Virus record (IMG/VR): IMGVR_UViG_3300002334_000164
Coordinates: 1-63,319 of that record
DNA: 63,319 nucleotides
Source: a virus
Direction: 5' to 3' (one strand)
Part shown: positions 277 to 54,636 of the stretch, piece after piece
Numbering within the stretch: the first letter of the stretch is position 1
Layout of the letters: each line of letters starts with the position of its first letter
The notes under the pieces: model-generated
Database searches by the model: none
What the model was told of the DNA's origin: nothing
What the model saw: the letters and a program-made list of their open reading frames with translations, nothing else
Program-made: the position numbers and the translations under genes

Positions 277-1059
277 ATGGATGAGATCATTGAAAATAAC
301 GGCCTGCTGACTGTGCTCCCTGTGATCCGGCCTGATACCGGTGCACGCTGTGTTTCTAGCGTCCTGAATCCCGAAATGTCAAGCGGTTTGAGTGCCGACG
401 AGCTGCTGATCGTGGACAACACCAAAGACGGCTGGGATCATGGATTCCCGGTGAAGACATACCGCGATCCGAATGGTCATAATCTGGGTGTGGCGAGGGC
501 TTGGAACGTTGGGGCGAGAGAAGTCCTGGAACGTGGCCTCGACTATCTGGTGGTCCTGTCGGCTTCTGTAGAATTCGGTCCTTTGCTGCATTGCACCTGG
601 AAGTCTCAGATGGAAGAATTTTGGGGCAGGCACGTGATTGAGGCTTTGGGTCATTCCTGGCATCTCATAGCCTTTCACCGCAGCGTGTTCGAAACGGTTG
701 GCTTGTTTGATGAGAACTTCTACCCAGCCTATTTCGAAGCTATTGACTTCGGTTACCGGATGAAGGTCTGCGGGGTTGTCCCCGACATTGAACCCGGACT
801 TGCATGGGCCGATCCGGTCTCTGGGCTAGAGCAGTACTTCGCGCGTCCATGGGTCAACGCCATGTCATGGGGTACCGCTCAGCACATAGTCGTAGATGTC
901 CCAGCAGATCCGTTGCTTGCCTATTATCGAAAGAAATGGGGCGGCGACAAAGGTCACGAAAAGTGGACGATGCCGTTCAATCGCAAAACGATCGACTGGT
1001 TCCCGACCGACACTATTCCTGTGTTGGCAGACCGGTACCATCTGAAGGACTGGTGGTAG
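277..1059 (+). CDS. Family 2-type glycosyltransferase
   Basis: A 260-residue protein with the layout of a GT-A fold, family 2 sugar transferase. A nucleotide-binding beta strand carries LLIVDNTKDG near residues 59-68. The NxGxAxAxN-type motif is at NLGVARAWNVG. A later acceptor-side segment reads FETVGLFDENFYPAYFEAIDFGYRM, shortened here in meaning to the usual E-D-D region of rhamnosyl-type enzymes. It should transfer a sugar from a nucleotide-sugar donor in the cytoplasm. The frame stays open back to a TTG at 175, but ATG 277 has an AGGA-type ribosome site at the right distance and starts where family homology begins. It stands apart from the seven glycosyltransferases at 9.6-18.2 kb and points the other way. 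Donor and acceptor cannot be read from sequence. Confidence 0.75.
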   Translation: MDEIIENNGLLTVLPVIRPDTGARCVSSVLNPEMSSGLSADELLIVDNTKDGWDHGFPVKTYRDPNGHNLGVARAWNVGAREVLERGLDYLVVLSASVEFGPLLHCTWKSQMEEFWGRHVIEALGHSWHLIAFHRSVFETVGLFDENFYPAYFEAIDFGYRMKVCGVVPDIEPGLAWADPVSGLEQYFARPWVNAMSWGTAQHIVVDVPADPLLAYYRKKWGGDKGHEKWTMPFNRKTIDWFPTDTIPVLADRYHLKDWW

Positions 1060-9616: not shown

Positions 9617-10717
9617 TTACCAGGCGAATCGTTGCTCTGGAAGGTACCCGGAACAGATAACGCGGAACACATCATCGTAGTACGGTGTCATTCTCTTCCA
9701 GGAGATCTTCTCTCCAAGGGCTGCTGTACGCTCTCTAAGGCTCGCTACTAGCTCAGGGTCTTCTGATAGCCGGTCAACAACTGCGGCTACCTCAACGGCA
9801 TCAGGCTCGTGTACGGCGATATCTGTCTTAGTGTAGACGATGCGATGCTGTGGGGCAGAGACTAATGCTTCGGCAGGGAGGAACTGGACTTGTGGTTTCA
9901 CACCAGACATGAGGCACGGCATTCCTATCGACATTGCTTCGTTCAGGGGCAAGCAGAGACCACCGAACTTGCGAGGAAACACGAACCCTTCTGCTCCTAC
10001 GTAGTTGTCTTGGGGTTCTTTAGCTAGACCGCGTGCCACATGGACCTTGTTGTTCGGGGCCATTATCTGACGGTCGGGGGTAGTGACTTTCAACCTGGCG
10101 TTAGACTTGGTGTAGTTCCATGCCTCTATACATACTTTGGTACCATTTCGGTCTTCCATCACCGGGTTCCCACCTGGATGGATCCATTGATTGATGACCG
10201 GAGAGTCCCACTTCTGCGGCTTGAAGATCTCGCGGTCCACCGGAACCGGGACAAATACCTTATGAGGGAAAGAGATATCTTCGTAACGCCACATGCTCGG
10301 AGCCATAAATACGTCTGGCTGGGGAAGACCCGTGTTGTGGACGTGATCGAGCAACTCAAAGTTGTATTGGAGAACTACCTTCACGCCCTTCTTCTGAGCT
10401 GCGTGTATCAGGTAGTAGTCGTACACCGTCTCGCAGGTAAACACAAGGTCAACCTGTTCAACCATCTGATCTATTGCGCGCTTGGTATCAGCATCTGGAT
10501 TCTTCAGAACAGGGGTCTCTGGATACGGAACGTATTTCACTACGCTGTCAGCGTCGGGGTACCAATGCCTGTTGAGTATCCGTCCGGATAGGTGACTGAG
10601 ATCCACGATCATCACGTGATCTGGTTTCATGTGTCGATAGAAATCTCGGGTCTGTATCCCCAATCCGGTAACGTCCGCACGAGCAACAAGCCCAATACGA
10701 AGTCCGTCTCTAGCCAT
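9617..10717 (-). CDS. GT-B glycosyltransferase (family 4-like)
   Basis: A 366-residue GT-B enzyme. The N-terminal Rossmann half carries GLVARADVTGLGIQTRDFYR, as in family 4 proteins that bind the acceptor. The C-terminal half has the family 4 E-x7-E-type donor motif in FVFPRKFGGLCLPLNEAMS around residues 247-265. It would transfer a sugar from a nucleotide-sugar in the cytoplasm. It is the last gene of the leftward carbohydrate cassette, with a good ribosome site (GAGGAACA). Sugar and acceptor are unknown. Confidence 0.8.
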   Translation of the reverse strand: MARDGLRIGLVARADVTGLGIQTRDFYRHMKPDHVMIVDLSHLSGRILNRHWYPDADSVVKYVPYPETPVLKNPDADTKRAIDQMVEQVDLVFTCETVYDYYLIHAAQKKGVKVVLQYNFELLDHVHNTGLPQPDVFMAPSMWRYEDISFPHKVFVPVPVDREIFKPQKWDSPVINQWIHPGGNPVMEDRNGTKVCIEAWNYTKSNARLKVTTPDRQIMAPNNKVHVARGLAKEPQDNYVGAEGFVFPRKFGGLCLPLNEAMSIGMPCLMSGVKPQVQFLPAEALVSAPQHRIVYTKTDIAVHEPDAVEVAAVVDRLSEDPELVASLRERTAALGEKISWKRMTPYYDDVFRVICSGYLPEQRFAW

Positions 10718-10862
10718 TGTTCCTCGTTTCTTCTTGTTTCATTTCCTCTTCAAGTTCACGTTTCGTTTCAAGCCATACCGGATAGTACGGCGACCATGTT
10801 CGTGAAGGTTCGACCCCAAGCCAACTGTGGTACCTTTCTTTGATAGTCCTGTCGTCAGCCAT
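10710..10862 (-). CDS. Hypothetical 50-residue protein carrying a 23-bp repeat
   Basis: Reads MADDRTIKERYHSWLGVEPS and ends EETRNNG. It overlaps its neighbours by a few bases at both ends and fills a gap in the cassette. Positions 10815-10837 within it are an exact copy of 17347-17369, but the two copies are read in different frames. It may therefore be a junction product rather than an old gene. Confidence 0.45.
   Translation of the reverse strand: MADDRTIKERYHSWLGVEPSRTWSPYYPVWLETKRELEEEMKQEETRNNG
10815..10837. repeat. 23-bp direct repeat, copy 1
   Basis: CCCAAGCCAACTGTGGTACC followed by TTT, identical to 17347-17369 in the same orientation. The two copies bracket a 6.5-kb block of sugar-transfer and methyltransferase genes. 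A chance match of this length in 63 kb is very unlikely. Confidence 0.85.
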
Positions 10863-12585
10863 CGATCACTCCTGCGAATGGCGCGTACTTAGCTGATGCT
10901 TCGTCGTCGTATGCGAAAGTCATCGTGTACTTGGACTCGCCTTCTCGTCCATCTGTGTGATATGAGCGTTTGATGTGATCAGCTATGGGCGTGTAGATCC
11001 AGAGCTTGAACTTCTCCCAACCTTCTATTCCCTTTTCCCGATAGTGGGTTTCCAAGACGGAATACATCACATCTTCGATCATCGTCCGAGATTCTCCGCC
11101 GAAGTAGGTGGAAGTCATCCAGCGATAGAATTCAGTACTAGCCAAATGAGGTCTCTGAGACCATTGCACCGTGCGGGTGATGCGAACGTTGCCACGGATC
11201 AACGGAGGTTGAATCATCAGATGTAAATGATCGGGCAAAATCATGGCTTCGTGATGGAGACGAATTATGTTCGCCGCTCCGGTACGAATCGCTTCGCCCA
11301 TGCCTTCCCATTCAATGAAATCGCAGATTGGAGTGTCTTGTTCGATGAACAAAATCAACCCAGTCTGGACCAAAGACTCCAGAGCCTTACGAGTCATCAT
11401 TCCTTGATGTAGGTGGTCTTCGTGAAGATGAACGATCACGTTCGACCAAGCATTATTGCACAACCACAACAGTCTACGTGTGTGCTCTTCGTAATCGCCT
11501 TTGCGAGTGTTCTGTTCTGGACGAACGCCGTCAAGCATGATGATGATTTCACAATGCTCCAGTTCGGGCTGAGAACGAATCGACTCAATGGTTTCTTCAA
11601 TGATGTGTGTGCTTGGGTGAGATTTGATTGGGCTAGAAGGCATGAGAACGGTGACCTGGTCACTGAAGTCGCCTTGGCCTCCGATCCCACTTAGAGAGTT
11701 TACGTCATCACGAAGTCCATAGGAAAGATCGCGTTTGTAATGCTGCCACCAGTTGAACACCTTGTTGGCTTCTGCGGGCCAGTTCTGGATAGCTTTGTTG
11801 GCTATTGTCCCGGCGCGATGCCAGTCTGTGATCTCCAGAAGTGGACGATTCTTGCCGAATATCATCTCCCAGAACTCAGGGAAATGTTCTTTGCCAGATG
11901 CTACGTCCACGATGGGAACGCAACCAGTTTCGAGAGCCTCGAAGAGACGGAACGAATCGGGGGACACTGGACCGCCTGGGGCAGGGGCTATCTTGGCTCC
12001 CGCTAGACGATCCCAGTAGTTCTTCTGATCGAGGCCCTGGATAAAGCCAGGAGTGCCTGTGACGTCTGCACCTTTGTAGTTCTGGAAGGCAGCGATGGCC
12101 TCATGTCTGCGACTATGAGTGTCCTGACCAGAGAAGAATACCGGAGTGGACTTGTCAGGTGGGTTTGAACGCAAATGCTGACGTAGGCCTGGTGGGTACA
12201 TGGTCCCAATGAAGCGCCGTACATTGCTGTAGTCACGATCTTTCTGAGGAGTCATCAACCAAATTCGCATATTCGGATGATCAAGCTGCTCTACAGGGAA
12301 TTCGCCTTCTTCGTCTCCTGTCAGAATGACAAGCGCCCATTCGATAGACTGGAGGATCTTGTTGATCTCCTTAATGTACTTGGCGTTCTGTCGGGCAGGG
12401 ATAACAACCACAGAGCCCCCGTCCGGAGGCATGGCGCCTTCGATGTGTTCAAAGACATGATGACCAGCTGGCTGCCAAAGTTCATTGGCAAACAGGTCTT
12501 CCAGCATTCCCTGGTCCCAATACCCGCGTGCCGGAGCTTTGGGGTTCAAGTTGAGCCACGTGACAGGAACAGCAGGAATTGTCAT
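10855..12585 (-). CDS. Two-domain glycosyltransferase (exostosin-like plus GT2-like)
   Basis: A 576-residue protein that looks like a fusion. Residues 1-300 resemble exostosin/GT47-type domains, with the donor-side motif APGGPVSPDSFRLFEALETG followed by CVPIV. Residues 310-576 start afresh as a family 2-like domain (SDQVTVLMPSSPIKSHPSTH, then EIIIMLDGVRPEQNTRKGDY, then LILFIEQDTPICDF, a DxD-like site). One polypeptide could thus add two sugars in turn, as exostosin co-polymerases do; that function is inference. It has a ribosome site (GGAGAG) and is coupled to the upstream methyltransferase by ATGA. Confidence 0.7.
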   Translation of the reverse strand: MTIPAVPVTWLNLNPKAPARGYWDQGMLEDLFANELWQPAGHHVFEHIEGAMPPDGGSVVVIPARQNAKYIKEINKILQSIEWALVILTGDEEGEFPVEQLDHPNMRIWLMTPQKDRDYSNVRRFIGTMYPPGLRQHLRSNPPDKSTPVFFSGQDTHSRRHEAIAAFQNYKGADVTGTPGFIQGLDQKNYWDRLAGAKIAPAPGGPVSPDSFRLFEALETGCVPIVDVASGKEHFPEFWEMIFGKNRPLLEITDWHRAGTIANKAIQNWPAEANKVFNWWQHYKRDLSYGLRDDVNSLSGIGGQGDFSDQVTVLMPSSPIKSHPSTHIIEETIESIRSQPELEHCEIIIMLDGVRPEQNTRKGDYEEHTRRLLWLCNNAWSNVIVHLHEDHLHQGMMTRKALESLVQTGLILFIEQDTPICDFIEWEGMGEAIRTGAANIIRLHHEAMILPDHLHLMIQPPLIRGNVRITRTVQWSQRPHLASTEFYRWMTSTYFGGESRTMIEDVMYSVLETHYREKGIEGWEKFKLWIYTPIADHIKRSYHTDGREGESKYTMTFAYDDEASAKYAPFAGVIDG

Positions 12586-13427
12586 AAAAGGTCTCTCCTT
12601 ACGAGAAGTCCGGTGACCTGGTCCGATAGGATCGCCGGGTTTAGAGGTAACGTATTGATGGTTGACCCTAGAGGATTGGCAGCGAACCCGACCGGATCGT
12701 AGCCTTTGTCAGGAACCTTAAACAGCTCGTACTTGTCTTTGCGAAGACTAAGTGCGTCTTGGGTTTCTTCCCACCCACCAAACATCGGTGACAGCTCAAG
12801 CATCATGTAGTCGATCATACCATGTTCGAAGAAATTCTGAAGCATATGAATGACGTGACATTCGGCCCCTTCTGTGTCTGATTTCACTAAGCGGACATGC
12901 GGAGCGGGATCCAAACCAGCTTGGATAGGGAGAGAGGGGGTGTCTTCGTCTATCCATCCGTGAACAATCATCCAATCCGTGTTGAAGCCGTTGTTCGACA
13001 TGCTGACTTCCATTGACTGAATGAAATGTGGATCCGCCTCAAAGGCTAAAACATTGCGATCAAGCCCGCGAGCAATGATCGAGTACCAGCCGACGTTAGA
13101 ACCGAAGTCCATAAAGATTCCGGGACTCTTATCCTCTAAGATCGAAATCGCCAAACCCGTGTCATATCCTTCCCAAATACCCTGACTACGAATAGAACGA
13201 GACACTTCGCCTCGGCCGGGGCAATAACCTGCCGCACTGCTCGCGACTGGCTCTACGAAACAATCAATTCGGAATTTGATATCTGGTAGTTGCGGATAGT
13301 CTGGTACATACCTATTGCTGAACGACAGGTCGATCGGGACCGCTGTGTGACGATGCGTAGCGCATCCTATTTGGCAGTTGGTATGAGTGCCTGTGACTAG
13401 ACTGTCAACATGTTCGGACCAGCTCAT
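12582..13427 (-). CDS. FkbM-family SAM-dependent methyltransferase
   Basis: A 281-residue methyltransferase. Motif I is FMDFGSNVGWYSIIARG, with an acidic residue after the second strand (VLAFEADPHF). The FkbM-type post-motif is LVKSDTEGAECHVIHML and the last strand region is YMMLELSP. FkbM enzymes O-methylate sugars or related hydroxyl groups, fitting the surrounding glycosyltransferases. ATG 13427 overlaps the upstream stop as ATGA; the frame extends to a TTG but lacks a ribosome site there. Its C-terminus is coupled to the next gene. Confidence 0.8.
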   Translation of the reverse strand: MSWSEHVDSLVTGTHTNCQIGCATHRHTAVPIDLSFSNRYVPDYPQLPDIKFRIDCFVEPVASSAAGYCPGRGEVSRSIRSQGIWEGYDTGLAISILEDKSPGIFMDFGSNVGWYSIIARGLDRNVLAFEADPHFIQSMEVSMSNNGFNTDWMIVHGWIDEDTPSLPIQAGLDPAPHVRLVKSDTEGAECHVIHMLQNFFEHGMIDYMMLELSPMFGGWEETQDALSLRKDKYELFKVPDKGYDPVGFAANPLGSTINTLPLNPAILSDQVTGLLVRRDLL

Positions 13428-14116
13428 CTTGGCGTGAACATCCAATGTTCTTCATGGTCGACTGCGAGTAGCTCCGCGTCGTACTCCATCTGTTCCATAA
13501 ACAACAAGAGGTTCTCTTTCTTATCTAGGTATTGGGGCATGAAGTCGGGATGCACTGAAACCCACACCACAGGCCTGCCATCCTGAAACGTTTCAACTCC
13601 ACCTCTGAGAGCTTGTAGTTCGGCCCCTTCTATATCCATTGAGATGGCCGTCGGGGACCCGAAATAGGCAGACAGTTCATCAATTGTGATGACTGTGGCG
13701 TCTGGGTAATCCGGCAGTCGGTGAAATCCTGGATCTTTATGGTGCTCCCCGAGCGAGTCTCCTGGCCAAGTACCGAAGGGTGAACGCGGACCCTTTGGTA
13801 AGGGACCTGCGAAGCCAATGATCATCCCTACAGGTGGGGTCGTGTTGTTCAGGTTCCAAATCTCACGAATCTCTGGCCAGAACAGTGCATTGGGTTCGAC
13901 CATGACCACCCTGGCCCCCGTAGTGGACCACAGTGCCGGGAAGTCACCTCGTTCCGAACCGATATCAAAAATGGTATGTTCGTCACCTTCGGACAGAAAG
14001 TTCATTATCGATTCGAGACGTTCGGGTTCCCAATTAGTGCCACGATCAGCCCACGTCTGCCATTGTTTAGCTCTGTCGTCGGGCAACCTGAGTTCGTGCT
14101 TGCCATTCAGAAGCAT
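13424..14116 (-). CDS. FkbM-family SAM-dependent methyltransferase (second copy)
   Basis: A 230-residue methyltransferase with motif I IFDIGSERGDFPALWS and VVMVEPNALFWPEI. The FkbM signature is AISMDIEGAELQALRGG, preceded by ITIDEL. It is shorter than, and clearly diverged from, the neighbouring FkbM enzyme, so the two probably methylate different positions. It starts within the upstream stop (TGATG). Confidence 0.8.
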   Translation of the reverse strand: MLLNGKHELRLPDDRAKQWQTWADRGTNWEPERLESIMNFLSEGDEHTIFDIGSERGDFPALWSTTGARVVMVEPNALFWPEIREIWNLNNTTPPVGMIIGFAGPLPKGPRSPFGTWPGDSLGEHHKDPGFHRLPDYPDATVITIDELSAYFGSPTAISMDIEGAELQALRGGVETFQDGRPVVWVSVHPDFMPQYLDKKENLLLFMEQMEYDAELLAVDHEEHWMFTPR

Positions 14117-15081
14117 CAGATCATCTTTCGTTTCGTGAGCAAGTCCATGAGTTGACCCATCCTCACTTCGTAGGTGTGATTCATCAACACGTGAGCCTGT
14201 CCCTGTTGGGCGATGTTCAAGCGTTTCTCATCATCGTTCACGTATTCTTCTATGATGGCTTGGAGTTGTTTCCAATTGCCAAGCTCGTAAGTCACAAGAT
14301 GCTTGCCAGACGTAAAGTGATCTGACAGACCTTCGACTTCAGGGTGAATGAGAAAACCGGCTCGACCTAAGGTTTCCGGAATCCGATCAGACCAATAATG
14401 AGTGATTCCACCATTGAGACAAGAATCACCAACCATGACTTTGGAGCTGTGATACAGGTCCACCAGACCCTGGCCTCGTAACGCGTGTTGACCCGGAATC
14501 GGGTACAGGCCTAGACGAGGACCAAAGGTTTTCTTGAGGAAATGGACCAGGGACATCCTGTACTTCCATTCCTTGTGATAATCCAAATGAGATCCTGCAA
14601 AGACCACGTCGTGTGAGCGTTCGTTTACGAATCGCGGTGTACGAAGGCACTCATGCTGAGAGACTCCCGGTGGCATCCAATAATGATTGACGAGAGCCGC
14701 TTCGAATTTCTCCTGATGATTCGGATCGCCGTCTGCAGTTATCAAGAGAGAAACCTTGAAGAACGGTTCAGACAGCACCTCTCCTGATCGGTTGAGACCC
14801 CACCATCTGTCGAGGTGGTAGCCGACCGTAGGGACGTCCACTTCTTCTGCAGCGTCCAGCATGTTTATTTGTAGTTGATGCGACGGTCCCGCCGCGCCCC
14901 AACCCGTACGAGTCCACAGCACCATGTCGAACTCGGACATCGAAACAATCAGTTGGTTCCATCGTTCCAGATTGTTTTCTTGGAACTGCATGACTTCATG
15001 ATCGAGATACGCAAGAGCCCTGTATACGTGGTTTTCTGTGCTGTGTTCTGGCTCGAAGTTCCCCAGATAAGCGATCTTCAT
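14116..15081 (-). CDS. GT-B glycosyltransferase (CgeB/glyco_trans_1_2-like)
   Basis: A 321-residue protein starting MKIAYLGNFEPEHSTENHVY. It contains TVGYHLDRWWGLNR, a HDVVFAGSHLDYHKEW strand and the C-terminal donor-site region VMVGDSCLNGGITHYWSDRI continuing to PETLGRAGFLIHPEVEGL. This pattern is typical of CgeB-like transferases seen in phages and in spore or flagellar glycosylation loci. TAATG coupling joins it to the upstream GT2 gene. Confidence 0.75.
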   Translation of the reverse strand: MKIAYLGNFEPEHSTENHVYRALAYLDHEVMQFQENNLERWNQLIVSMSEFDMVLWTRTGWGAAGPSHQLQINMLDAAEEVDVPTVGYHLDRWWGLNRSGEVLSEPFFKVSLLITADGDPNHQEKFEAALVNHYWMPPGVSQHECLRTPRFVNERSHDVVFAGSHLDYHKEWKYRMSLVHFLKKTFGPRLGLYPIPGQHALRGQGLVDLYHSSKVMVGDSCLNGGITHYWSDRIPETLGRAGFLIHPEVEGLSDHFTSGKHLVTYELGNWKQLQAIIEEYVNDDEKRLNIAQQGQAHVLMNHTYEVRMGQLMDLLTKRKMI

Positions 15082-15683
15082 TAGTTTCTCCTGATCTGAT
15101 TGTAGACTCTGTTGTGTAGGTCTCTGTTTGTGTTTCGTGAGTCTGGGTTAACGTGTATTCGATATACGGCGTCAGGAACTTCCACTACCTTCGCTCCCGC
15201 CTTAACCATTCTTCTCCAGAGATCCCAATCCTCTAATACCGGATAGTCACGGAATCCCCCGACCTCCTGAAAGAGTTCAGCTCTACACATGGCTCCGATC
15301 ACGATGTGATTGGATGTGTTGATATCCCTCTCAGGAATCATCGTAGGGGCGTCATCTTCGTGACCGTCGGGATAGATACCAATAGTTGAAGGTTTTCTGA
15401 TATCTCCTTCTCCCGCAAGCATGGCGTCTACGTAGTTAGGACTAAGCTCGTCGTCCGCGTCGAGGAAGATGAACCACTCGACTCCTAGCTCGAATAATTC
15501 GTCAGCACCCCTATTGCGTGCATGTTGCAGAGTGTCCTCATGCTTCCAGACGAGCCTGTCGGCACCTGTATCCTCAGCAGAATACATCGCTCTAAGAGCT
15601 AGTGGTCCCCATTCCGGGTCGTCCCCAAATGTACCAATGACTACGCCTACCGTGTCAGGGATCACGGTCGACCGCCCTCCCAT
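15081..15683 (-). CDS. Family 2 glycosyltransferase
   Basis: A 200-residue GT-A enzyme. VGVVIGTFGDDPEWGPLALR starts the first strand. LQHARNRGADELFELGVEWF leads into the metal-binding DxD site FLDADDEL (residues 73-80), and VGGFRDYPVLEDWDLWRRM is the usual ED acceptor helix. It overlaps the upstream gene by 22 bases. It is compact relative to most family 2 proteins but keeps all catalytic motifs. Confidence 0.85.
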   Translation of the reverse strand: MGGRSTVIPDTVGVVIGTFGDDPEWGPLALRAMYSAEDTGADRLVWKHEDTLQHARNRGADELFELGVEWFIFLDADDELSPNYVDAMLAGEGDIRKPSTIGIYPDGHEDDAPTMIPERDINTSNHIVIGAMCRAELFQEVGGFRDYPVLEDWDLWRRMVKAGAKVVEVPDAVYRIHVNPDSRNTNRDLHNRVYNQIRRN

Positions 15684-16381
15684 TCAACAAGTGTTGGCGT
15701 AGTGATAATTGATTGGATGTGCCGTCTGCTGTGACTTCCTATCAATGCTGAATACCGCTTATGCTTGGCGATGCGATCTTCGGCATTGACGTAACCGAAG
15801 TGCAAGATTCTCAAATCGTAAGAGATGATTGACGAATCCTTGGTCACGTAGCTTGGCCAGGACCCTCCACCCAGTTGTTTGTTGTTCCATTCGCCATGTG
15901 GCTTGAATCGGAATAGGCGTGGATGTTGGTTCTTGTTCCACCAGCCGTCGACTCTGTAAACCATCGGATCTAGACCCCAGATTTCCTGGAACTTGATAAC
16001 GATAGCGTCAATATCCACCATTTCGGCGCCCTGACATGCGCTGTGAACTGCCCTCCTGGGCGACTCGCCGTCTTCTCTGACTAGAAATTCATCGGCGTCC
16101 AGGGCTAATACCCAGTCCTCTTCTCCTACTCCGGTAGATGCACTGAATACGTCCCACGCATCCTGTCGAAACAACCCCTCATTAAATGCGAAGGACGGGT
16201 CTTCCGGTGCACGAACGACAACTGAGGCCCCGTAATCGGCACATATCTTGGCGGTATCGTCAGTGGATCTGTCGTCGTACACAAACATGTGATCGACTAT
16301 TGTCTTGGCATGAATCAACATGTTTTCTAAATGACGATTCTCTTCATTCTTGGTTACCATCATTCCGTAAATCAATCGCAT
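15662..16381 (-). CDS. Family 2 glycosyltransferase
   Basis: A 239-residue GT-A enzyme starting MRLIYGMMVTKNEENRHLEN. The motif VYDDRSTDDTAKIC holds the first Asp pair, and VLALDADEFLV is the metal-binding site. W-rich acceptor segments follow (GWWNKNQHPRLFRFKPHGEW). The layout matches family 2 enzymes annotated as SPS or LPS core transferases. The ribosome site is AGGAAATC. Confidence 0.85.
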   Translation of the reverse strand: MRLIYGMMVTKNEENRHLENMLIHAKTIVDHMFVYDDRSTDDTAKICADYGASVVVRAPEDPSFAFNEGLFRQDAWDVFSASTGVGEEDWVLALDADEFLVREDGESPRRAVHSACQGAEMVDIDAIVIKFQEIWGLDPMVYRVDGWWNKNQHPRLFRFKPHGEWNNKQLGGGSWPSYVTKDSSIISYDLRILHFGYVNAEDRIAKHKRYSALIGSHSRRHIQSIITTPTLVEWEGGRP

Positions 16382-16387
16382 GATTTC

Positions 16388-17176
16388 CTAATCGTGTTGT
16401 ATCCCGTGGTGGTCGCACATTTCACGAAACATCTTTCGCGAGATGGGCATCTGTTGTTCGGCCCAGCCTCCTACAGGTGAGGCCTTGTGCCATTCGTGAA
16501 TCATCTTAGCCTTGCCATTGTACATGACCTTGTAGCCGTGAGCCCGTGCGTGGTAGGAGAACCAGGTTTCTTCATAGTAATGGGTCGTGGGAAGAAACGG
16601 TCCTTCGACGTTTGGATAGAGATCTCTGTACAGAGGACACACATCCAACCATTGAAACACTTCTTGTTTGACAAAGTATGCCGAACCTGAGACAGTCACC
16701 GCTTCGCGGACGTCTTCGTATTCTTCACGCCAACGATCTTTCCAACCACGATGCTTAGGAGCTTTGGGAGTACCGAAGATTCCTGCATGAGTCACCCGAC
16801 CCCCGCTGTTGACCTGCCCTGGACCCACGACTCCGATGGTGCTGTCAGACTGAAGCAGGTCGTAGCAGGAGTCGACCACCCCTGGAGTAAGCAAGGTATC
16901 TGCATTGAAGAACGCTACTACGCCATCAAGGTCCGGGATGCTGTAGCCCGCAAGATTAAGGGCGCCCGAATAGTACAGGTTTCCCTGTGCGAGTTGATGA
17001 ATGCAGGTTCCTTTGTCTATGAAATACTGAGCGACTTTGAGGTCTGCCTTCTCGGGCTCGTTGTTGACGATAACGAGTTGACTAAGAACCTTCGGGATGT
17101 TCTCTTCGTAACTGGTACAGAAATTGAACAGATCGTCAGGAGTCTTGTAGTTGACAACTACCAACGTGATGCTCAT
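16388..17176 (-). CDS. Family 2 glycosyltransferase, rhamnos-type
   Basis: A 262-residue GT-A protein starting MSITLVVVNYKTPDDLFNFC. It has LVIVNNEPEK, the N-x-G-type segment LYYSGALNLAG, the metal site VAFFNADTLLTPGVV and the domain-closing VSGSAYFVKQEVFQWL plus an acceptor stretch HYYEETWFSYHARAHG. This resembles rhamnosyltransferase-like family 2 proteins. ATG 17176 lies just after the previous stop and has an AGGGAA site; the frame is open a little further upstream. Confidence 0.8.
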   Translation of the reverse strand: MSITLVVVNYKTPDDLFNFCTSYEENIPKVLSQLVIVNNEPEKADLKVAQYFIDKGTCIHQLAQGNLYYSGALNLAGYSIPDLDGVVAFFNADTLLTPGVVDSCYDLLQSDSTIGVVGPGQVNSGGRVTHAGIFGTPKAPKHRGWKDRWREEYEDVREAVTVSGSAYFVKQEVFQWLDVCPLYRDLYPNVEGPFLPTTHYYEETWFSYHARAHGYKVMYNGKAKMIHEWHKASPVGGWAEQQMPISRKMFREMCDHHGIQHD

Positions 17177-17177
17177 T

Positions 17178-17432
17178 CTAATTCCCTGTGGGGGTGAGTC
17201 CCTGTGCACTTAATGCATAAGCGACGTGGGGCGGTCCTTTATCTGCGACAGCGTTTATCACAACAGTGGTCCCTCGTGGACAGGGAGTCCAAACAGAATT
17301 GAAACTAGTCCCCCAAACAAGGAATAGCACTCCACCTAAATCTTGACCCAAGCCAACTGTGGTACCTTTGAAGATCCACCATCCGGCATTCGGAAGTATC
17401 GCAAATGTTTGTCCGTCTTCTAGTTCTCTCAC
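17178..17432 (-). CDS. Hypothetical 84-residue protein carrying a 23-bp repeat
   Basis: Starts at GTG 17432, which overlaps the upstream stop (GTGA). It reads VRELEDGQTFAILPNAGWWI, followed by hydrophobic, Gly-rich segments. Positions 17347-17369 duplicate a piece of the 50-residue gene at 10710-10862 but in another reading frame. No family recognised. Confidence 0.45.
   Translation of the reverse strand: MRELEDGQTFAILPNAGWWIFKGTTVGLGQDLGGVLFLVWGTSFNSVWTPCPRGTTVVINAVADKGPPHVAYALSAQGLTPTGN
17347..17369. repeat. 23-bp direct repeat, copy 2
   Basis: Exact copy of 10815-10837, same orientation, at the far edge of the 6.5-kb carbohydrate gene block. Reading frames differ at the two copies, so protein-level selection does not explain the identity. 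Confidence 0.85.
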
Positions 17433-18178
17433 CAGCCGACCCGATCGTCTACTTGATGCAAATCTTCCACACTCATGCAGTGCTTGCTGACCATTCGACC
17501 ATCCCACCCTAGTTTTAGACCTTTCGCCCGAACTGCCTTGGACCAGCCAATGTCTTCACCTTGTCGATGGGCCTCATAGTCCACGTTGTAGGCTTGAGGA
17601 GACATTAGCTTGATAGCCATGAGCACGTCAACAGGAAAGAACCCTTCCTGATCCTTTCGAAGAAGGTTTCCGTTGCTGTTGAGCTTTGCATAGTTAACTA
17701 CATGGCAGATTGGCTTACGTCCGTCCTTGCCGGTACTGCGCGGACCTTTGGCCAAATAGCATTTAGAACCCACTGCGTCGAAATCACTGTTGTCGAGATC
17801 GTCAATCATCTTCGGAAGAACTCCTGGTCCGATCAAGATGTCGCTATCAATCGACAGAAAATAGTCAGGCTGCATGAGACGGATAGTTTCTAGCATCTTG
17901 TTTCGTAGCTGAGTCATCACCTCATAGCGAGGAAGGTCCCAGACGCGTGTGTCCTCCCGAATCTCTTCTTCTTGAGTGACGAGTATCGGGCAGACCTCAT
18001 GGGTCTCACATGCCTCAGTGAACGCGGTGTTTAACTCGATTGCTTTATCAGGGGCCAGGAGGTACAGAGATAGATTCACGTCTGCTTCGCGCCCAGCCAT
18101 AGCCAGATACTGGACCCATTGCTTGATGATCCATTCTCGTCCGTTAGCTGGACATCCCGCTATCATTGATGGTCTCAT
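17429..18178 (-). CDS. Glycosyltransferase-like protein (GT-A, Anp1/GT2-like)
   Basis: A 249-residue protein with YFLSIDSDILIGPGVLPKMI as a DxD metal site and a following strand-helix. LRNKMLETIRLMQPD precedes it, as in Anp1/GT62-like or family 2 enzymes. A late EDIGWSKAVRAKGLKLGWDG fits the acceptor-side acidic helix. ATG 18178 is taken; it overlaps the HNH gene upstream by 35 bases. It is the most upstream sugar-transfer gene of the leftward cassette. Confidence 0.7.
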   Translation of the reverse strand: MRPSMIAGCPANGREWIIKQWVQYLAMAGREADVNLSLYLLAPDKAIELNTAFTEACETHEVCPILVTQEEEIREDTRVWDLPRYEVMTQLRNKMLETIRLMQPDYFLSIDSDILIGPGVLPKMIDDLDNSDFDAVGSKCYLAKGPRSTGKDGRKPICHVVNYAKLNSNGNLLRKDQEGFFPVDVLMAIKLMSPQAYNVDYEAHRQGEDIGWSKAVRAKGLKLGWDGRMVSKHCMSVEDLHQVDDRVGW

Positions 18179-28874: not shown

Positions 28875-29514
28875 GTTCTGCGCCAACGCGATGAGCAAGG
28901 GAATGCCCTCTCACATCGACAAGAATGATCTCATTTCTTCAGGCCAGTTTGGCTTGATCGATGCGGTGTCTCGCTTTGATTATTCCAGGGGTTTGCGATT
29001 CGAGACCTTCGCTGTACGACGAATTAAGGGTGCGATCCTAGATGAGTTACGCTCTCAGGATTGGGTGCCTCGTTCTGTTCGTAGTCGTGAGCGTAGGCTG
29101 GCACAGGCTATAGAGTCGGATTCGAAATCGCCTTCTATGGCCGAGTTGATAGAGATGACAGATATGACCGAAGAAGAAATACTGAAGACTCGGTCGGGTT
29201 CTGAATTGTCTCAGATCCATACGCTCGACATGCAATTGGAGTCTCGTCGTCCAAACGACTCTGGTTCTGTTTCGCTCGCCGATACCGTCACTCGTGATAT
29301 TGGTGGATTGTCAGAGATGTTTGAGAATCTTGACCCGGAGGCAGTAGTAACGGCGATCGACGATCTTGGCAACCGCGAGGTGATGGTCATAACGATGCAT
29401 TACTATCTAGGGAAATCTTTGAAAGAGATCGGCCGTGAGTTTGGAGTCACAGAGAGCAGGGTCTGTCAGATTCACACCAAAGCCCTGAAGAAGATTCGTG
29501 AGGGATTGAAGTGA
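28786..29514 (+). CDS. Phage sigma factor, WhiG/FliA (sigma-28) family
   Basis: A 242-residue sigma-70-type factor. Region 2 holds LISSGQFGLIDAVSRFDYSR, then GLRFETFAVRRIKGAILDEL, the FliA/WhiG hallmark. Region 3 follows with RSVRSRERRLAQAIES. Region 4 has the helix-turn-helix LKEIGREFGVTESRVCQIHT. It would direct host RNA polymerase to phage promoters, probably middle or late ones; candidate GCCGATAA-like boxes lie at 31931, 58070 and elsewhere. ATG 28786 has GGAG seven bases upstream. It is coupled to the next gene by GTGA. Confidence 0.88.
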   Translation: MITQTDWELAQNGDLEVRNRIVLEFQNLVEFCANAMSKGMPSHIDKNDLISSGQFGLIDAVSRFDYSRGLRFETFAVRRIKGAILDELRSQDWVPRSVRSRERRLAQAIESDSKSPSMAELIEMTDMTEEEILKTRSGSELSQIHTLDMQLESRRPNDSGSVSLADTVTRDIGGLSEMFENLDPEAVVTAIDDLGNREVMVITMHYYLGKSLKEIGREFGVTESRVCQIHTKALKKIREGLK

Positions 29515-30071
29515 ATTACTGGGATACTCAAGCATCGGATTTTGGGGTTTTGTCGCTCGGAGCTGACAATTGGGAGAGGGTCCACGACTATCAGGTACGG
29601 CTTCTACAAGAGAGATTGCCCGACAAGCATGGTAGGGTGCTCGAAATTGGTGGCGGCGTGGGTCGACTGGGCATTCCTCTTGCTAAGGAAAATCCTGATC
29701 TCTTCTTCACGAATTACGATACGTCTGAGGAGATGCTCAAGGAGTTCACTAAACGCAGTAAGGATGTTGAGAACATCGTGGGCTGTGACACTTTGACGAC
29801 CGGGCTAAGGTTTGATCTGGTTTTTTGTGTCCTAGTGATTCAGCACAACGACCTTGACAGTGTCAACAAGTTGATGTCTTTGATCGTTCTGGCATCCAGA
29901 CCGTATGCACGGATCCTTGTGCAGTTTGTCCGAGGCGACAAGTACACAGCTCATGGTCCGCGCTCATTCGATTATTCGATGGAGCAGATTGAGACCTTTT
30001 TGCCAGGGGCCAAGTTCTTCAAGGATGAGTCAGGTTATGCAGATTCTTGGTGGTGGGCAGAAATTCAATAG
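29511..30071 (+). CDS. Class I SAM-dependent methyltransferase
   Basis: A 186-residue protein starting at GTG 29511, with motif I VLEIGGGVGRLGIPLA and the acidic end of strand 2 (FTNYDTSEEML). FDLVFCVLVIQHND is motif IV/post-motif and VQFVRGDKY follows. It is a small-molecule or macromolecule methyltransferase; the W-rich tail ends SWWWAEIQ. The target is unknown. It directly precedes the tRNA region. Confidence 0.75.
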   Translation: MNYWDTQASDFGVLSLGADNWERVHDYQVRLLQERLPDKHGRVLEIGGGVGRLGIPLAKENPDLFFTNYDTSEEMLKEFTKRSKDVENIVGCDTLTTGLRFDLVFCVLVIQHNDLDSVNKLMSLIVLASRPYARILVQFVRGDKYTAHGPRSFDYSMEQIETFLPGAKFFKDESGYADSWWWAEIQ

Positions 30072-30440: not shown

Positions 30441-30511
30441 AGGGGTGCTGATTGGTCAGACTGAGGTCTCCAAAACCTCAAGGCGGGGTTCGATCCCCCG
30501 TACCCCTGCCA
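30441..30511 (+). tRNA. tRNA-Trp (CCA)
   Basis: Acceptor AGGGGTG/TACCCCT, anticodon loop CTCCAAA with anticodon CCA, T arm CGGGG-TTCGATC-CCCCG, discriminator G and encoded CCA. Reads TGG. Confidence 0.92.
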
Positions 30512-30516
30512 AATAT

Positions 30517-30592: not shown

Positions 30593-30605
30593 AGTAAGTA
30601 AGTAT

Positions 30606-30680: not shown

Positions 30681-30690
30681 ACTGAATATT

Positions 30691-30880: not shown

Positions 30881-30884
30881 ATAA

Positions 30885-46629: not shown

Positions 46630-47205
46630 GTGAGTAACTATGGACGCAATTTCGTCCTCACTGTGCCACCTCATGGTCGCGATCGGAAGGGCCGTTTCTA
46701 TAACGCACAAGGCGCAGCGATTCCGATCGGTGTTCCAGTTGTAGCAACTGACGGAACGCCAAACGCGTTGGGCCTAGAGCCTGTCACGTTGGCGACTCTG
46801 CCTCAGGCTCCTCCTCTCGCAGGTCGTGGTGGTATCGCAGTCTACGAGTACGGTCCCAACGCATTCGAGGGTACCGATCCGGCCTTAACGGTCGGTAGTG
46901 ATTTGGACACTGTTCCAGATACTAACGCAGTTCAGGTTGTTAGTGGGGCCTATATCAAGGTTCTTCTCATCAACACTGCAGCATCATCTCTCTTCCTCAA
47001 CACACGGACTTACACAGGCCGCGTGATGGTAGCAGGGTTGAATGGTGCAACTAGCTCGATTGCAGTAGGGGATTACCTTACTCCGGGCTCAGGAAACGAC
47101 ACCGACGGATACTGGAATGAAACCACAACTGCTTCTGAAGCATGGATGGTTGTCACGAAGGTAGACGCTGATCGAGATGAGCTTGAAGCTCAGCTCACTT
47201 TCTAA
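46630..47205 (+). CDS. Capsid decoration-like protein
   Basis: A 191-residue beta-rich, Gly/Thr-rich protein starting at GTG 46630 (AGGAGGTATGACAC upstream), reading VSNYGRNFVLTVPPHGRDRK. It lies immediately before the capsid gene, the usual site for decoration or head-stabilising proteins. No domain is recognised by eye, so the role is from position and composition. Confidence 0.55.
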   Translation: MSNYGRNFVLTVPPHGRDRKGRFYNAQGAAIPIGVPVVATDGTPNALGLEPVTLATLPQAPPLAGRGGIAVYEYGPNAFEGTDPALTVGSDLDTVPDTNAVQVVSGAYIKVLLINTAASSLFLNTRTYTGRVMVAGLNGATSSIAVGDYLTPGSGNDTDGYWNETTTASEAWMVVTKVDADRDELEAQLTF

Positions 47206-47221
47206 GGAGGAGGTGAACAAA

Positions 47222-48178
47222 ATGGGAACATCCACATACATCGATAACCTCGGTCGCAACAGCGAAGAGCGTGCAAAGATTCAGGCAGAGATCGCAATGG
47301 TCAACGCCGATGCAGAAGAGAACTGGGACGATCCTGCATGGCGTAAGACCATGGCTCAGGAAATGTCAGAGACAATTCTGCAAGGATTCGAGCACGAAAA
47401 CCTCCTCCAGATTATGAGCCAGGTTGAGAATGCACCGTTCAACGGTCGGATTCTGATTAAGGAAGTCCGTGGTCTCCGCGCTCATTGGGTTGCGCGTGGC
47501 GGTTACATCGAAGTTAGCACGTTGCGTTCAAACGTAATGGAGCTTCCTCGGGACACCATCGGATTCCACGTGATGGACTTCGAAGACAAGATTCGGACTA
47601 ACTTCGCTGAGACTCAGAGTGACTTGATTACTCTTGGTCAGGAGCGAATGGATGCTGAGGTAAACCTCCGGGTTCTAGCTCTCTTCCAGTCTGCAATCGG
47701 TACTGGTTCTGACTTCTACGTCAGCGGCGCAGGTCTTAGCCTGTCTGCATTGAACACAGCACTTCGTGAGGTTCGTGACGAAAGCAAGGTCAACGAAGTT
47801 GTCATTGTTGGTCGGTCGACTATGACCGATCAGATTATGGACAACCTCCTCGGCGGCTCTTTCAATGGTTCTGGCTTCCTGCCAGAAACTAACGAACAGC
47901 TTGTCAAGCGTGGTGTCTTGGGCGTTTATCGTAACGCTAGGATCCTCACTCTTGTCAACCACAAGGATGACGCTGACATCAGCTTCTTCCCTGCAAACGA
48001 ACTTTATGTCGTCGCTCGCGATGCCAGCAAGTTTGCTTTCTGGGGCGGTCTGATGTTCAAGGAGTACAGCGAACTCGACGCTTGGTACTGGCACTACATT
48101 GCCCGCCGTGATTTCGGTGGCGTAGTTCATCGTCCTGAGCGTATGCGCCGGATGGTCGACACTAGCATCTCAGCTTAG
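47222..48178 (+). CDS. Major capsid protein (HK97-like fold)
   Basis: A 318-residue protein with the HK97 order. A helical N-arm (NAEENW-type EEERAKIQAEIAM region) is followed by the E-loop area LIKEVRGLRAHWVARGGYIE. The spine helix FAETQSDLITLGQERMDAEV comes next, then the P-domain strand VIVGRSTMTDQIMDNLLGGS. The A-domain VLGVYRNARILTLVNHKDDA and the closing ASKFAFWGGLMFKEYSELDA complete it. ATG 47222 has AAGGAGGAGG upstream. A TTCG-loop terminator follows, so it probably ends a high-level transcript. Confidence 0.85.
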   Translation: MGTSTYIDNLGRNSEERAKIQAEIAMVNADAEENWDDPAWRKTMAQEMSETILQGFEHENLLQIMSQVENAPFNGRILIKEVRGLRAHWVARGGYIEVSTLRSNVMELPRDTIGFHVMDFEDKIRTNFAETQSDLITLGQERMDAEVNLRVLALFQSAIGTGSDFYVSGAGLSLSALNTALREVRDESKVNEVVIVGRSTMTDQIMDNLLGGSFNGSGFLPETNEQLVKRGVLGVYRNARILTLVNHKDDADISFFPANELYVVARDASKFAFWGGLMFKEYSELDAWYWHYIARRDFGGVVHRPERMRRMVDTSISA

Positions 48179-51900: not shown

Positions 51901-53962
51901 GGGCCTTGTCGGGCTCGGTGATGATGATCATTCACAATACATTCTGGTTGATGGTACTCGTGCACTAACAGGCGACCTCGCTACGTCGGGGACGTTCGAT
52001 GGTCGCGATGTGGCGGCTGACGGATCAAAGCTAGACGGCATCGAGACCTCTGCGACTGCCGATCAGACAAATGCTGAGATTCGTACGGCGGTGGAAGCCG
52101 CTACTGACAGCAACATCTTCACCGATGCTGAGAATACGAAACTCGGTGCCATCGAAGCTAGCGCTGATGTAACGGATGCTACTAATGTAGCGGCAGCTGG
52201 TGCTCCGATTATCACAGCCCAGGCAGGAGCGCCTTCGTCGACCCCAGCTACTGAGGGTGATATCAACATAGACACCACAGGTGACCGGGTATACATCGCG
52301 ACTGGCACCGTGTCATCTGCAGATTGGGACCTAGTCCCTATCACTGGTGCGCAGATAAAGGCTCTGTACGAAGCTGAATCTAACGCATTTACGGATACTA
52401 AGAACACCAAGCTGGCAGGTATCGAGACGGCTGCAGACGTAACCGACGAAACCAACGTTGCGGCCACTGCATCGGTAATAGCTAACTCGGCAAAGGTGAC
52501 CAACGCCAATCATACGGGTGACGTCACGGGTTCCACAGCTTTGACTGTTGACAAGACTGCCATTTCTGGGCAGGTTCTTGTTACTGCAGTTGGCACAGAC
52601 CACGTACTGATTGGAGATGCGTCTGATACAGATAATCTGAAGAAAGCCTTGGTGTCTGATCTAACGGGTAGTGGTATCGCTAACGTCGTAGAAGACACTT
52701 CACCTCAGCTTGGTGGTCATCTTGACGTTAACGGTCAGGTGATTGGTGACGGTACCCGCGAACTTCTGACTTTCGTCGAAGATGGTTCCGCCGTCAATCA
52801 CGTGGAGATTGAGAATCAAGCAACGGGTAGCGGTCCTATCGTCAGAGCTACGGGTGACGATGCCAATGTCGATCTTCATTTGGACACAAAGGGTACAGGC
52901 AACATCAAAGCCGACGACGACCTTGATGTCACTGGCAACGTTACGGTCACCGGCACCGTCGATGCACGTGATATCGCGACCGACGGATCAAAGCTAGATG
53001 GCATCGAGACTTCGGCAACGGCCGATCAAACTGACGCCGAAATTCGTACCGCGGTTGAAGCAGCAACTGATAGCAACGTCTTCACAGACAACGACCATAC
53101 GAAACTGAACGCCGTAGAAGCGTTAGCGGACGTCACTGACACAACTAACGTGACCTCTGCAGGCGCTCTGATGGATTCTGAAGTCGACGTCGACATCAAG
53201 ACCCTTGTGCTGCCAGCGAGTACAACAATTACGGCTGCAGCGGCTACCGTCCTAGACGACGCAACAGTAGCGGCAATGGTTGACACCCTTGGCGGGGCGA
53301 GCAGCGGAGGCACAGGAGGCCTCGCACGTCTTGTGTCTCCGAGCTTCACCACACCGGCCTTGGGGACCCCCAGTGCTGCTGTGTTGACGAACGCAACTGG
53401 CACAGCCGCTAGTCTAACAGTAGGAGCCACTACAGGGGTCGAAGCCGGTGCGGATGTAACAGATACAACCAATGTGACTGCAGCAGGCGCTCTGATGGAT
53501 TCAGAGGTTGATGCTGATATCAAGACTTTGGCACTTCCGGCTAATACGACCATCTCGACATTTGGCGCGACGGTAATTGATGACGCCAGTGCCGCAGCAG
53601 CTCGCGTGACGCTAGGTACTGATATCACCTCGGCTAGCGATGTTGATGATCTAACCAAGATCGCTGCTGTCAACTACACCGGCACTACCGACACTCTGGC
53701 GCTCACTGACGCTTTTGCGCTGCTGTACTACAGCAACGCTTCGCAGGTGACGGTCACGATACCAACCAATGCTTCGGTAGCGTTCGCTGTGGGTACCAGG
53801 ATTTGCTTGATGTCCACAGGAGCGGGTGGAATCACGCTAACAACTACATCTTTGACTCTGTTGGGATCTTCTCCGAACAAGACAGTCGTTCAGAATGAAG
53901 CGTTCTACATTGAGAAGGTCGCTACGGATACCTGGGCGATCATCGGAGGCACAGCAGCATGA
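48986..53962 (+). CDS. Very large repeat-built fibre or appendage protein
   Basis: A 1,658-residue virion protein. Residues 1-130 form an Ig-like lead region. Tandem blocks follow: KLAGIETAADVTDETNVAAT-type, DQTNAEIRTAVEAATDSN-type, SEVDADIKTLALPANTTITA-type, and a receptor-like middle (about 670-1000). The blocks occur two to four times each and resemble beta-helical shaft modules of phage fibres. The end has a compact beta domain (NYTGTTDTLALTDAF). Repeats that encode almost the same protein use very different codons. The gene lies between capsid and connector genes, an unusual place for a tail fibre, so it could be a head fibre. Start ATG 48986 has AGAGGTAG. Confidence 0.75.
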   Translation: MNTDIPPVLKEITIYEAATYFKEFAVVDVDGAVVDISGWTGEALAVTAIGGVLQGTFEVHIVDGSAGTFSLYMSESQTANMSVGVYDVILTSDEATPGLYAVRHGPLDFVREASYSSVVEGVPLPDVESLNDLTDVVLVTPLSGQVLSYNGTTWVNSAASGLGDMLASTYDPATIAEQLVGLTATQTLTNKTLTAPVISGNLTTDGLIDGVDVATDVAANTAKVTYPSADSTKLAGIETAADVTDETNVAATASVIANTAKVTNANHTGEVTGSTALTVDKTVISGQTLVTAVGADHVLIGDASNADNLKRALVSDLTGGGIANIVEDATPQLGGNLDVNGFTVDGRDPSVDGTKLDAIEDNATIDQTNAEIRTAVEAATDSNVFTDNDHTKLNAIEALADVTDVANVGTAGAPIISAGAGAPSSTPTKVGDVYVDTTGDNVYAAAGTASSADWKQATGAGGGDLLAANNLSDVASAPTSRTNLGLAIGSDVQAHDAVLDATTASFLIADETKLDAIEALADVTDTTNVTAAGALMDSEVDADIKTLALPANTTITAAAATVLDDATTGAMLTTLGGATAAQGTTADSAMQDLVDDVTPQLGGALDVSGQSIVSVSAGDIPLTPDTTGNVIIDGVKHPQADGSANQLMKTDGAAQLAFADVNSLPVSRISGSTYSTIQHLQDIFHSVGLTSGGVITDDGDGTITVATGTGVIRATNSAVAEILFFDWAAESGVAVAVTDNAMNYVYAEYNSGSPQAVATISKRTDLMTNVLLGTVYREGTDLHITLSTAPGVGNHAAQMVQRMHETLPFARASGGVLSEIGTRNIAISAGSWWDGLTNFATSALDTSVAGTFRYFYSDGSGGFTEITAQTQINNTQYDDGSGSLATLSNNRYGAHWVYVSQNDAYLVVFGTVDGTLSVAEDAPEPSSLPPFFAETHARLIGKIIILKSASTFHSTQSAFDLTFSLQTASDHGGLVGLGDDDHSQYILVDGTRALTGDLATSGTFDGRDVAADGSKLDGIETSATADQTNAEIRTAVEAATDSNIFTDAENTKLGAIEASADVTDATNVAAAGAPIITAQAGAPSSTPATEGDINIDTTGDRVYIATGTVSSADWDLVPITGAQIKALYEAESNAFTDTKNTKLAGIETAADVTDETNVAATASVIANSAKVTNANHTGDVTGSTALTVDKTAISGQVLVTAVGTDHVLIGDASDTDNLKKALVSDLTGSGIANVVEDTSPQLGGHLDVNGQVIGDGTRELLTFVEDGSAVNHVEIENQATGSGPIVRATGDDANVDLHLDTKGTGNIKADDDLDVTGNVTVTGTVDARDIATDGSKLDGIETSATADQTDAEIRTAVEAATDSNVFTDNDHTKLNAVEALADVTDTTNVTSAGALMDSEVDVDIKTLVLPASTTITAAAATVLDDATVAAMVDTLGGASSGGTGGLARLVSPSFTTPALGTPSAAVLTNATGTAASLTVGATTGVEAGADVTDTTNVTAAGALMDSEVDADIKTLALPANTTISTFGATVIDDASAAAARVTLGTDITSASDVDDLTKIAAVNYTGTTDTLALTDAFALLYYSNASQVTVTIPTNASVAFAVGTRICLMSTGAGGITLTTTSLTLLGSSPNKTVVQNEAFYIEKVATDTWAIIGGTAA

Positions 53963-54636
53963 CTCTACTGATCCCTCTTGGAGGGATACTCCAACAGCAG
54001 GGCGCCGCTGAGGCGGACCCACCTGACTTTCGATCTGTTGCAACAGCACAGATTGACAACTCGGAGACCATTACGATCGGGAAACCCGCAGGCACAGTTC
54101 AGAATGACGTTATGATTTGCCTCATTGGGACTTCATCTGTTACAGCGACACAGCCGACCCTGGCAGGCTGGACTGAAGTGGGCTCGGGTCTATCGGGTTC
54201 TAGTATGTCAGGAGCTTCTTGGTGCTACTATAGAGTAGCGGGTGCGTCTGAGGGCTCTGATTACACATTTGACGGTTTGAGGTCCACCGACGATTCGTCA
54301 GGGTTTATCGCTTCTCTCACGGGTATAGATACCAGTACTCCGTTTGACGCATTTGGCGCCAGTCAGGGGGGTTCCCCAAACACCACCTCTGTCACTACTG
54401 TTGTGAATAACGCCTATATTGTTGGTCTTACGCATTCAGATAGTTCGGGTGCCCAGTCGTATTCTTCTAGTAGTTTCGATGCCGAACGCCTAGATTTTCG
54501 CTTCACGAACAAGGATCACATAATGGCTATGTACACGGAAGACGATGCAGGAGCGGCCGGGCTAAAGAACCGGACTGTTGCCTTTACAGGGGGTGGGGCC
54601 GGACTTTGGGTGGTTAGTTTCCAGCCAGCATCATGA
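53959..54636 (+). CDS. Minor structural protein
   Basis: A 225-residue Ser/Thr/Gly-rich beta protein that starts within the fibre stop (ATGA). MTLLIPLGGILQQQGAAEAD is followed by a repeated Gly/Ser-Asp pattern and FGASQGGSPNTTSVTTVVNN. Composition suggests an extracellular, beta-sandwich or lectin-like part that may sit with the fibre. Confidence 0.5.
   Translation: MTLLIPLGGILQQQGAAEADPPDFRSVATAQIDNSETITIGKPAGTVQNDVMICLIGTSSVTATQPTLAGWTEVGSGLSGSSMSGASWCYYRVAGASEGSDYTFDGLRSTDDSSGFIASLTGIDTSTPFDAFGASQGGSPNTTSVTTVVNNAYIVGLTHSDSSGAQSYSSSSFDAERLDFRFTNKDHIMAMYTEDDAGAAGLKNRTVAFTGGGAGLWVVSFQPAS

Follow-up and report, generated by a model that had tools for sequence, protein, structure and literature searches.

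We identified a carbohydrate cassette in an uncultured phage genome, and its most likely product is a coat of methylated sugar on the phage particle. The window, which is the whole 63,319-nucleotide stretch of DNA that was analyzed, corresponded to positions 1-63,319 of the linear virus record IMGVR_UViG_3300002334_000164 in IMG/VR. Between positions 9,617 and 18,178, its leftward (-) strand encoded seven glycosyltransferase (GT) proteins and two FkbM-type methyltransferases, and every open reading frame (ORF) was found at the coordinates given in Table 1. Our analysis indicated that the cassette is probably a set for glycosylation and O-methylation of virion proteins that uses host sugar donors. 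Virion proteins were placed first among the possible targets because we found no nucleotide-sugar or base-hydroxylation genes in the window ORFs scanned or in 43 kb of adjoining sequence, and no membrane segments in the cassette proteins.

To our knowledge, virion glycosylation in tailed phages has been reported only for a few mycobacteriophages; Freeman et al. reportedly described it in Che8, Corndog, and Myrna in 2023. The cassette suggests a much wider, conserved glycosylation system among uncultured phages, and it supplies new soluble glycosyltransferases for study, including a GT47/GT-A fusion that represents an enzyme family absent from the named phages searched.

Gene content and layout of the cassette

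The gene order on the minus strand was GT2d, GT2c, GT2b, GT2a, CgeB-like, MT2, MT1, GT47/GT-A fusion, and GT4-like. Because the fusion contained two GT domains, eight GT domains were distributed across the seven GT proteins. The initial annotation had listed seven glycosyltransferases and two FkbM methyltransferases, and this count was right for proteins, as judged from Pfam matches, homologues, motifs, and the structural model of the fusion. It had also described the genes as mostly translationally coupled, which agreed with our finding that six of the eight junctions overlapped or nearly so (the eight comprised overlaps of 22, 1, 1, 22, and 4 nt and gaps of 6, 137, and 219 nt, with the 219-nt gap measured to the GTG-start ORF of GT2c). 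The GT2c ORF opened at 17209, and homologues suggested an ATG near 17176. ORF 17178-17507, located between GT2d and GT2c, was probably not a cassette gene, as it was absent in locus L163, where GT2d and GT2c abutted. A promoter and terminator scan yielded nothing above shuffled sequences.

Table 1. Cassette genes, related genes, and candidate target genes in the window
Feature	Coordinates	Strand	Supporting observations
GT-A-like protein	277..1059	+	phrog_29879 (galactosyl transferase) 6e-12
GT4-like GT-B glycosyltransferase	9617..10717	-	Sub-threshold PF13692/PF00534; conserved homologues
Two-domain GT: N-half GT47/GT114-like GT-B, C-half GT-A (predicted)	10855..12585	-	pLDDT 95.7 model; fold matches
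MT1, FkbM-type methyltransferase	12582..13445	-	Family-level PF05050; profile alignment with MT2
MT2, FkbM-type methyltransferase	13424..14116	-	PF05050 1e-8
CgeB-like GT-B glycosyltransferase	14116..15081	-	PF13524 3.6e-17; model with GT-B fold
GT2a, GT2, DADD motif	15081..15683	-	PF13632 1e-7; DxDD residues conserved 15/15
GT2b, GT2, DAD motif	15662..16381	-	PF13704 4e-13; relatives in GX15bay, L163, L031
GT2c, GT-A glycosyltransferase, NAD motif	16388..17176	-	50% identity with GX15bay GT2; motif conserved 4/4
GT2d, GT-A glycosyltransferase, DSD motif	17429..18178	-	Weak Pfam GT2/Anp1; 40% end-to-end identity with L163
Small SAM methyltransferase	29511..30071	+	PF08242 6e-9; cluster F3
Probable major capsid protein, candidate target	47177..48178	+	53% identity to GX15bay; follows terminase and portal-like genes
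Ser/Thr-rich (24%) protein, ends ...QPAS	53959..54636	+	Structural-region protein checked, with [GA]S C-terminus

Profile searches for each domain gave strong Pfam or PHROG matches for the CgeB-like protein, MT2, GT2a, and GT2b and weak matches for the others. The CgeB-like protein (63.1 bits against PF13524; curated cut-off, 25) and MT2 (35.9 bits against PF05050; curated cut-off, 22.7) passed their thresholds, and the DxEG core of the MT2 motif was almost invariant across 80 homologues. MT1 itself had no Pfam match; PF05050 was matched by 9 of the 16 members of its family, and hhalign gave a probability of 94.5% for MT1 against the MT2 profile. The GT4 protein, the GT47 half of the fusion, and two GT-A ORFs (GT2c and GT2d) were below the Pfam cut-offs. 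These sub-threshold assignments were backed by conserved homologues, the fusion model, and the GT-A motifs DAD(D), DAD, NAD, DSD, and ExD; in the GT4-like protein, E260 of the PRxxGGxxxxxxE motif was invariant in 80 homologues.

An eighth transferase had been proposed at position 277. It corresponded to ORF 175-1059 (probable start, 277), which we refer to as GT175 in gene orders. The family lacked a DxD motif and had a conserved S-A-[AS]-x-[RE]-F in its place (also in L020, L034, L041, and L122), and its relatives were located within the cassettes of other phages. Relatives of the small methyltransferase gene at 29511..30071 also sat within the cassette in six loci (L004, L007, L009, L011, L013, and L014).

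The gene content was consistent with the earlier reading of a multi-sugar, O-methylated glycan. The accompanying proposal that the donors come from the host also held up, as Pfam matches to nucleotide-sugar synthesis genes were absent from the window ORFs scanned and from 43 kb of additional sequence on a sister contig. None of the cassette proteins had a transmembrane segment (the maximum 19-residue hydropathy was ≤1.24 in all).

Predicted structures of the fusion enzyme and the CgeB-like protein

The fusion was modeled from 66 sequences with a pLDDT of 95.7 and a pTM of 0.94. The N-terminal half of the model matched A075L (Z 15.3, 3.7 Å, 228 residues; E 1.2e-4 in an HMM comparison), and the C-terminal half matched B4GALNT1 (Z 17.3) as well as polypeptide GalNAc-transferases (about Z 15). 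The N-terminal half thus has, in the predicted model, the GT-B fold of the GT47/GT114 group (A075L, exostosin), together with the sequence signature. In the profile alignment, the invariant Arg213 of the fusion aligned with the donor-site Arg208 of A075L once an offset of two residues from the tag was taken into account; the same offset placed Asn202 correctly. The catalytic Asp73 of A075L fell outside the aligned stretch. A075L adds xylose to the capsid glycan of chlorovirus PBCV-1 (PMC11571054), and PBCV-1 uses several GTs for this glycan and completes it with two O-methyltransferases (PMC9614988).

The CgeB-like protein was modeled with a pLDDT of 95.8 and had a GT-B fold. As an indicator of target type this fold was uninformative, since PimA, BshA, and the T4 DNA alpha-glucosyltransferase (AGT) were tied at about Z 21.

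The initial annotation had named virion proteins, phage DNA, and host receptors as possible targets. If the target were phage DNA, the enzymes would glycosylate hypermodified bases as a defense against restriction; GTs of other phages do glycosylate DNA, the CgeB-like fold matched T4 AGT (although tied with other GT-B enzymes), and the sister contig contained a downstream Pfam match to an N6/N4 DNA methylase. We regard this reading as improbable. There was no Pfam match to thymidylate synthase/hydroxymethylase or TET/JBP-like proteins in the window and the 43 kb beyond it, and no base-hydroxylating or hypermodification precursor gene was found in about 106 kb of an incomplete genome. Moreover, seven GT proteins plus FkbM methyltransferases are more than known base glycosylation needs, and in relatives it was structural genes, not replication genes, that surrounded the cassette.

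Recurrence of the cassette in viral genomes

A core consisting of the CgeB-like gene, one or two FkbM genes, the GT47/GT-A fusion gene, and the GT4 gene was colinear on one strand in ~125 fetched loci, almost all of which were viral. The fusion gene was followed by the GT4 gene in 70 maps, and the CgeB gene was followed by the FkbM gene in 53. The most widespread member of the cassette was the CgeB-like gene (151 of 166 loci); single-sequence searching recovered relatives from 13 viral contigs, and profile searching from 82. Relatives of the fusion were present in 375 viral contigs, of which 80 were kept, and numbered 5 among 84,980 species genomes, which were searched with a slightly different pattern set. 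No relative of the fusion was found in 50,697 named phages, and tblastn searches of named phages with the fusion, MT2, and GT4 gave no match. A literature search on phage CgeB/FkbM cassettes returned nothing relevant.

Two of the five genome relatives were informative as to their context. One (L161) lay in a Nocardia prophage, directly downstream of genes for the capsid and the major tail protein. The other (L163) was a contig in a Saccharibacteria metagenome-assembled genome; another contig in this bin carried a gene related to the probable capsid gene of the window, which suggests that the bin contains phage fragments. Its gene order, GT2d-GT2c-GT2b-GT2a-CgeB-FkbM-GT47-GT4, was that of the window minus MT1, and the order in L031 was GT2c-GT2b-GT2a-CgeB-FkbM-FkbM-GT47-GT4. 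The N- and C-terminal halves of the fusion mapped apart from each other in L129, L134, L140, L142, and other loci. A GT2a-GT4-CgeB-FkbM set on a Streptomyces plasmid represented a cassette relic, and an epimerase/dehydratase gene was located within or beside the cassette in 10 loci.

Linkage of the cassette to head and tail genes

In relatives, the cassette was usually located among head and tail genes (those for the major head protein, tail protein, portal, and the large terminase subunit, TerL). It came right after, or one to two genes from, the gene for the major head protein (phrog_777) in L004, L007, L012, and L013, and it came after the gene for the major tail protein (phrog_792) in the Nocardia prophage. 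The L005 cassette started 10 bases past a capsid gene of the phrog_10 type, and the corresponding distance was within 0.7 kb in L041, L115, and L123. Among 29 records in which a capsid gene was scored, the CgeB gene was on the same strand in 28 and downstream in 23, with a median distance of 7.5 kb; the combined Fisher p for proximity was 0.01 across these mutually related records. Because of this relatedness, and because one strand dominates in many phages, we consider the linkage evidence to be moderate.

Linkage extended to packaging genes in the window's own terminase lineage: TerL, GT2a, CgeB, GT175, FkbM, and GT47 genes followed in a row in L214, and GT2 genes adjoined TerL in L181 and in phage GX15bay. 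In the L066 group, the gene directly after the cassette was terminase-like and had a LAGLIDADG domain. The window was an exception, as its cassette was in the leftward arm, ~29 kb from the probable capsid gene and on the opposite strand; the cassette was likewise unlinked in L031 and L034. The capsid assignment in the window was based on the position of the gene after terminase and portal-like genes.

The location of the cassette also bears on the proposal that its role is to change the glycan of the host envelope, during infection or in the lysogenic state, as in superinfection exclusion or serotype conversion. Temperate phages commonly carry GT genes for host surface conversion, one relative was a Nocardia prophage, and the relic was on a Streptomyces plasmid. 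Nevertheless, a role of this type seems quite unlikely. The cassette encoded no membrane-spanning protein, flippase, or polyprenyl-phosphate transferase, and thus differed from serotype-converting gtr loci with their membrane flippase and polytopic transferase. In addition, the cassettes of relatives were among late head and tail genes, and the presence of the cassette covaried with serine-terminal capsid and tail proteins, as described below. Of the three targets proposed earlier, then, virion proteins gained support, and phage DNA and the host surface became less likely.

C-terminal serine on capsid and tail-tube proteins

In phages with the cassette, 26 of 27 phrog_777 capsid proteins and 27 of 28 phrog_792 tail (tube) proteins ended in serine, with 22 in each group ending in Gly/Ala-Ser. 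Among relatives in which no cassette was detected, a terminal serine was found in 2 of 12 phrog_777 proteins (none with Gly/Ala-Ser) and 0 of 6 phrog_792 proteins. The association gave Fisher values of 1e-6 for the capsid and 5e-6 for the tail tube, which overstate independence in that the loci are interrelated; in addition, short flanks made up several of the cassette-minus controls. We noticed the serine rule in these protein families, and most of its testing drew on them as well. As a background, 9.6% of neighboring ORFs ended in serine and 2.0% ended in Gly/Ala-Ser. A third capsid type ended in PASS or IQTS in phages with the cassette and in VK, GA, or TP in the named phages Bbif-1, Eleri, and Curiosium. 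The capsid of Streptomyces phage Yara, which has a CgeB-like gene, ended in ...GLNS.

Similar ends were found in mycobacteriophage Che8 (capsid, ...NKTGS; tube, ...SDGS). Two papers describe glycans at the C termini of mycobacteriophage capsid and tube proteins and include Che8 among the phages in which phage GTs glycosylate these proteins (PMC12619734, PMC12363180).

It is possible, although we hold this only tentatively, that the virus-restricted operon glycosylates both capsid and tail-tube subunits at one C-terminal tag that they share and that ends in serine (usually as Gly/Ala-Ser-COOH). The acquisition of the same tag by unrelated capsid and tail proteins would then make it a portable acceptor signal for phage GTs. 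Under the same tentative reading, the operon may be widespread and essentially unknown in cultured phages. Such C termini would provide a simple acceptor-site rule that could be used to predict sugar-coated phages from sequence, and the rule would bear on adsorption and particle stability.

The serine rule failed in the window's lineage, in which capsids ended in SISA, NQAA, and SITP; the capsid of the window itself ended in ...DTSISA, with alanine in the last position. A terminal serine was also absent from the capsid of GX15bay (...LAP) and from the capsids of L111-type phages that carry CgeB and GT4 alone (...VK). The lack of a terminal serine on the window capsid fits an overlapping version of the virion reading in which the target is a tail fiber or minor virion protein only, instead of the capsid and tube. 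The window's fiber (48986-53962; 21% Ser plus Thr), which the initial annotation had given as an example of a virion target, and the adjacent protein at 53959..54636 were Ser/Thr rich, and in Yara the CgeB-like and methyltransferase genes were directly 3' of a large gene in the late structural region. We view this restricted target as somewhat unlikely, given that the cassette was near capsid and tail-tube genes in most scored relatives and that the C termini of these proteins covaried with it.

Returning to virion proteins in general, we propose that the late cassette would assemble a short oligosaccharide, bearing O-methyl groups, on proteins that make up the particle. The soluble, phage-encoded transferases would draw nucleotide sugars from the host cytosol. 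One of them would start the glycan on a protein side chain, and candidates for this step are the CgeB-like protein, the GT4-like protein, and the GT-A domain of the fusion. The remaining transferases would extend the glycan, one sugar per step, and the FkbM enzymes would add O-methyl groups to it, probably as caps. The acceptors in relatives are likely to be the major capsid protein and the tail-tube protein, with attachment at the C-terminal serine or beside it, and the benefit may be a glycan shield or altered particle adhesion.

Comparison with known systems

The virion glycosylation system of mycobacteriophages Che8, Corndog, and Myrna resembles the cassette in its use of a phage-encoded GT set, according to published accounts (PMC12363180, PMC11256854, PMC12619734). 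In Che8, gp108 looks like a fusion of a GT and a methyltransferase, and the capsid and tube proteins end in -GS, as in cassette relatives. Unlike the cassette, Che8 has three GT genes and no relative of CgeB, GT47, or FkbM, and the profile similarity was weak (24 bits for GT2a and gp108; 12 bits for GT175 and gp109).

Chlorovirus PBCV-1 (A064R, A061L, A075L, and A111/114R) also uses soluble viral GTs and O-methyltransferases, and A075L resembles the modeled N-terminal half of the fusion in fold, with its donor arginine aligned to an invariant arginine there. However, PBCV-1 is an algal virus with an N-linked glycan on its capsid protein VP54, and A075L is a single-domain enzyme, whereas its cassette counterpart is joined to a GT-A domain in one protein. 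A CgeB-like GT gene lies downstream of tail genes in Streptomyces phages Yara, Dryad, and others, with a methyltransferase gene two genes later (Yara gp30 had a weak profile match to MT2). This type differs in its low identity (about 30%) and in its short three-gene set, which lacks the fusion enzyme.

The closest named phage was GX15bay (MK557849), from mangrove soil. Identities to the window were 46% for TerL, 53% for the probable capsid protein, 50% for GT2c, 36% for GT2b, and 42% for GT2a, and GX15bay carried GT and methyltransferase genes just upstream of TerL. No match to the window's CgeB, FkbM, GT47/GT-A, or GT4 was found in GX15bay, and a DNA-level search of named phages gave no match.

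The source virus and additional observations

The sister contig (L169; 84,764 bases) was identical to the window across the overlapping stretches compared and extended ~43 kb past it, which puts the viral genome at >106 kb. The final 68 bases of the window (63252-63319) differed from the otherwise identical sister contig and cut off the tape-measure ORF (60653-63286), which ended in ...GRASCRERV; we presume that this end reflects Illumina adapter read-through. Past the window, sister contig G047 (L220-L222) encoded a sulfotransferase-domain protein, possibly for further carbohydrate modification in the same virus, as well as DnaE, DnaB, dCMP deaminase, and the N6/N4 DNA methylase.

Several other features of the window were noted. 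Three small paralogues (cluster F11) were arranged in tandem at 2606-3958, and a dual-specificity phosphatase-like protein (PF00782, 3e-13) was encoded at 4818-5321. A LAGLIDADG-domain ORF was located at 38720-40270, close to TerL, and the TerL and portal-like genes of L214 and GX15bay appeared to be interrupted, perhaps by inteins. Finally, the region at 30441-38647 contained 33 tRNA genes and a tmRNA gene (tag GEPTFTVATSEDIWSAFEQTELVSV), with ORFs between them, which is an unusually large translation set.
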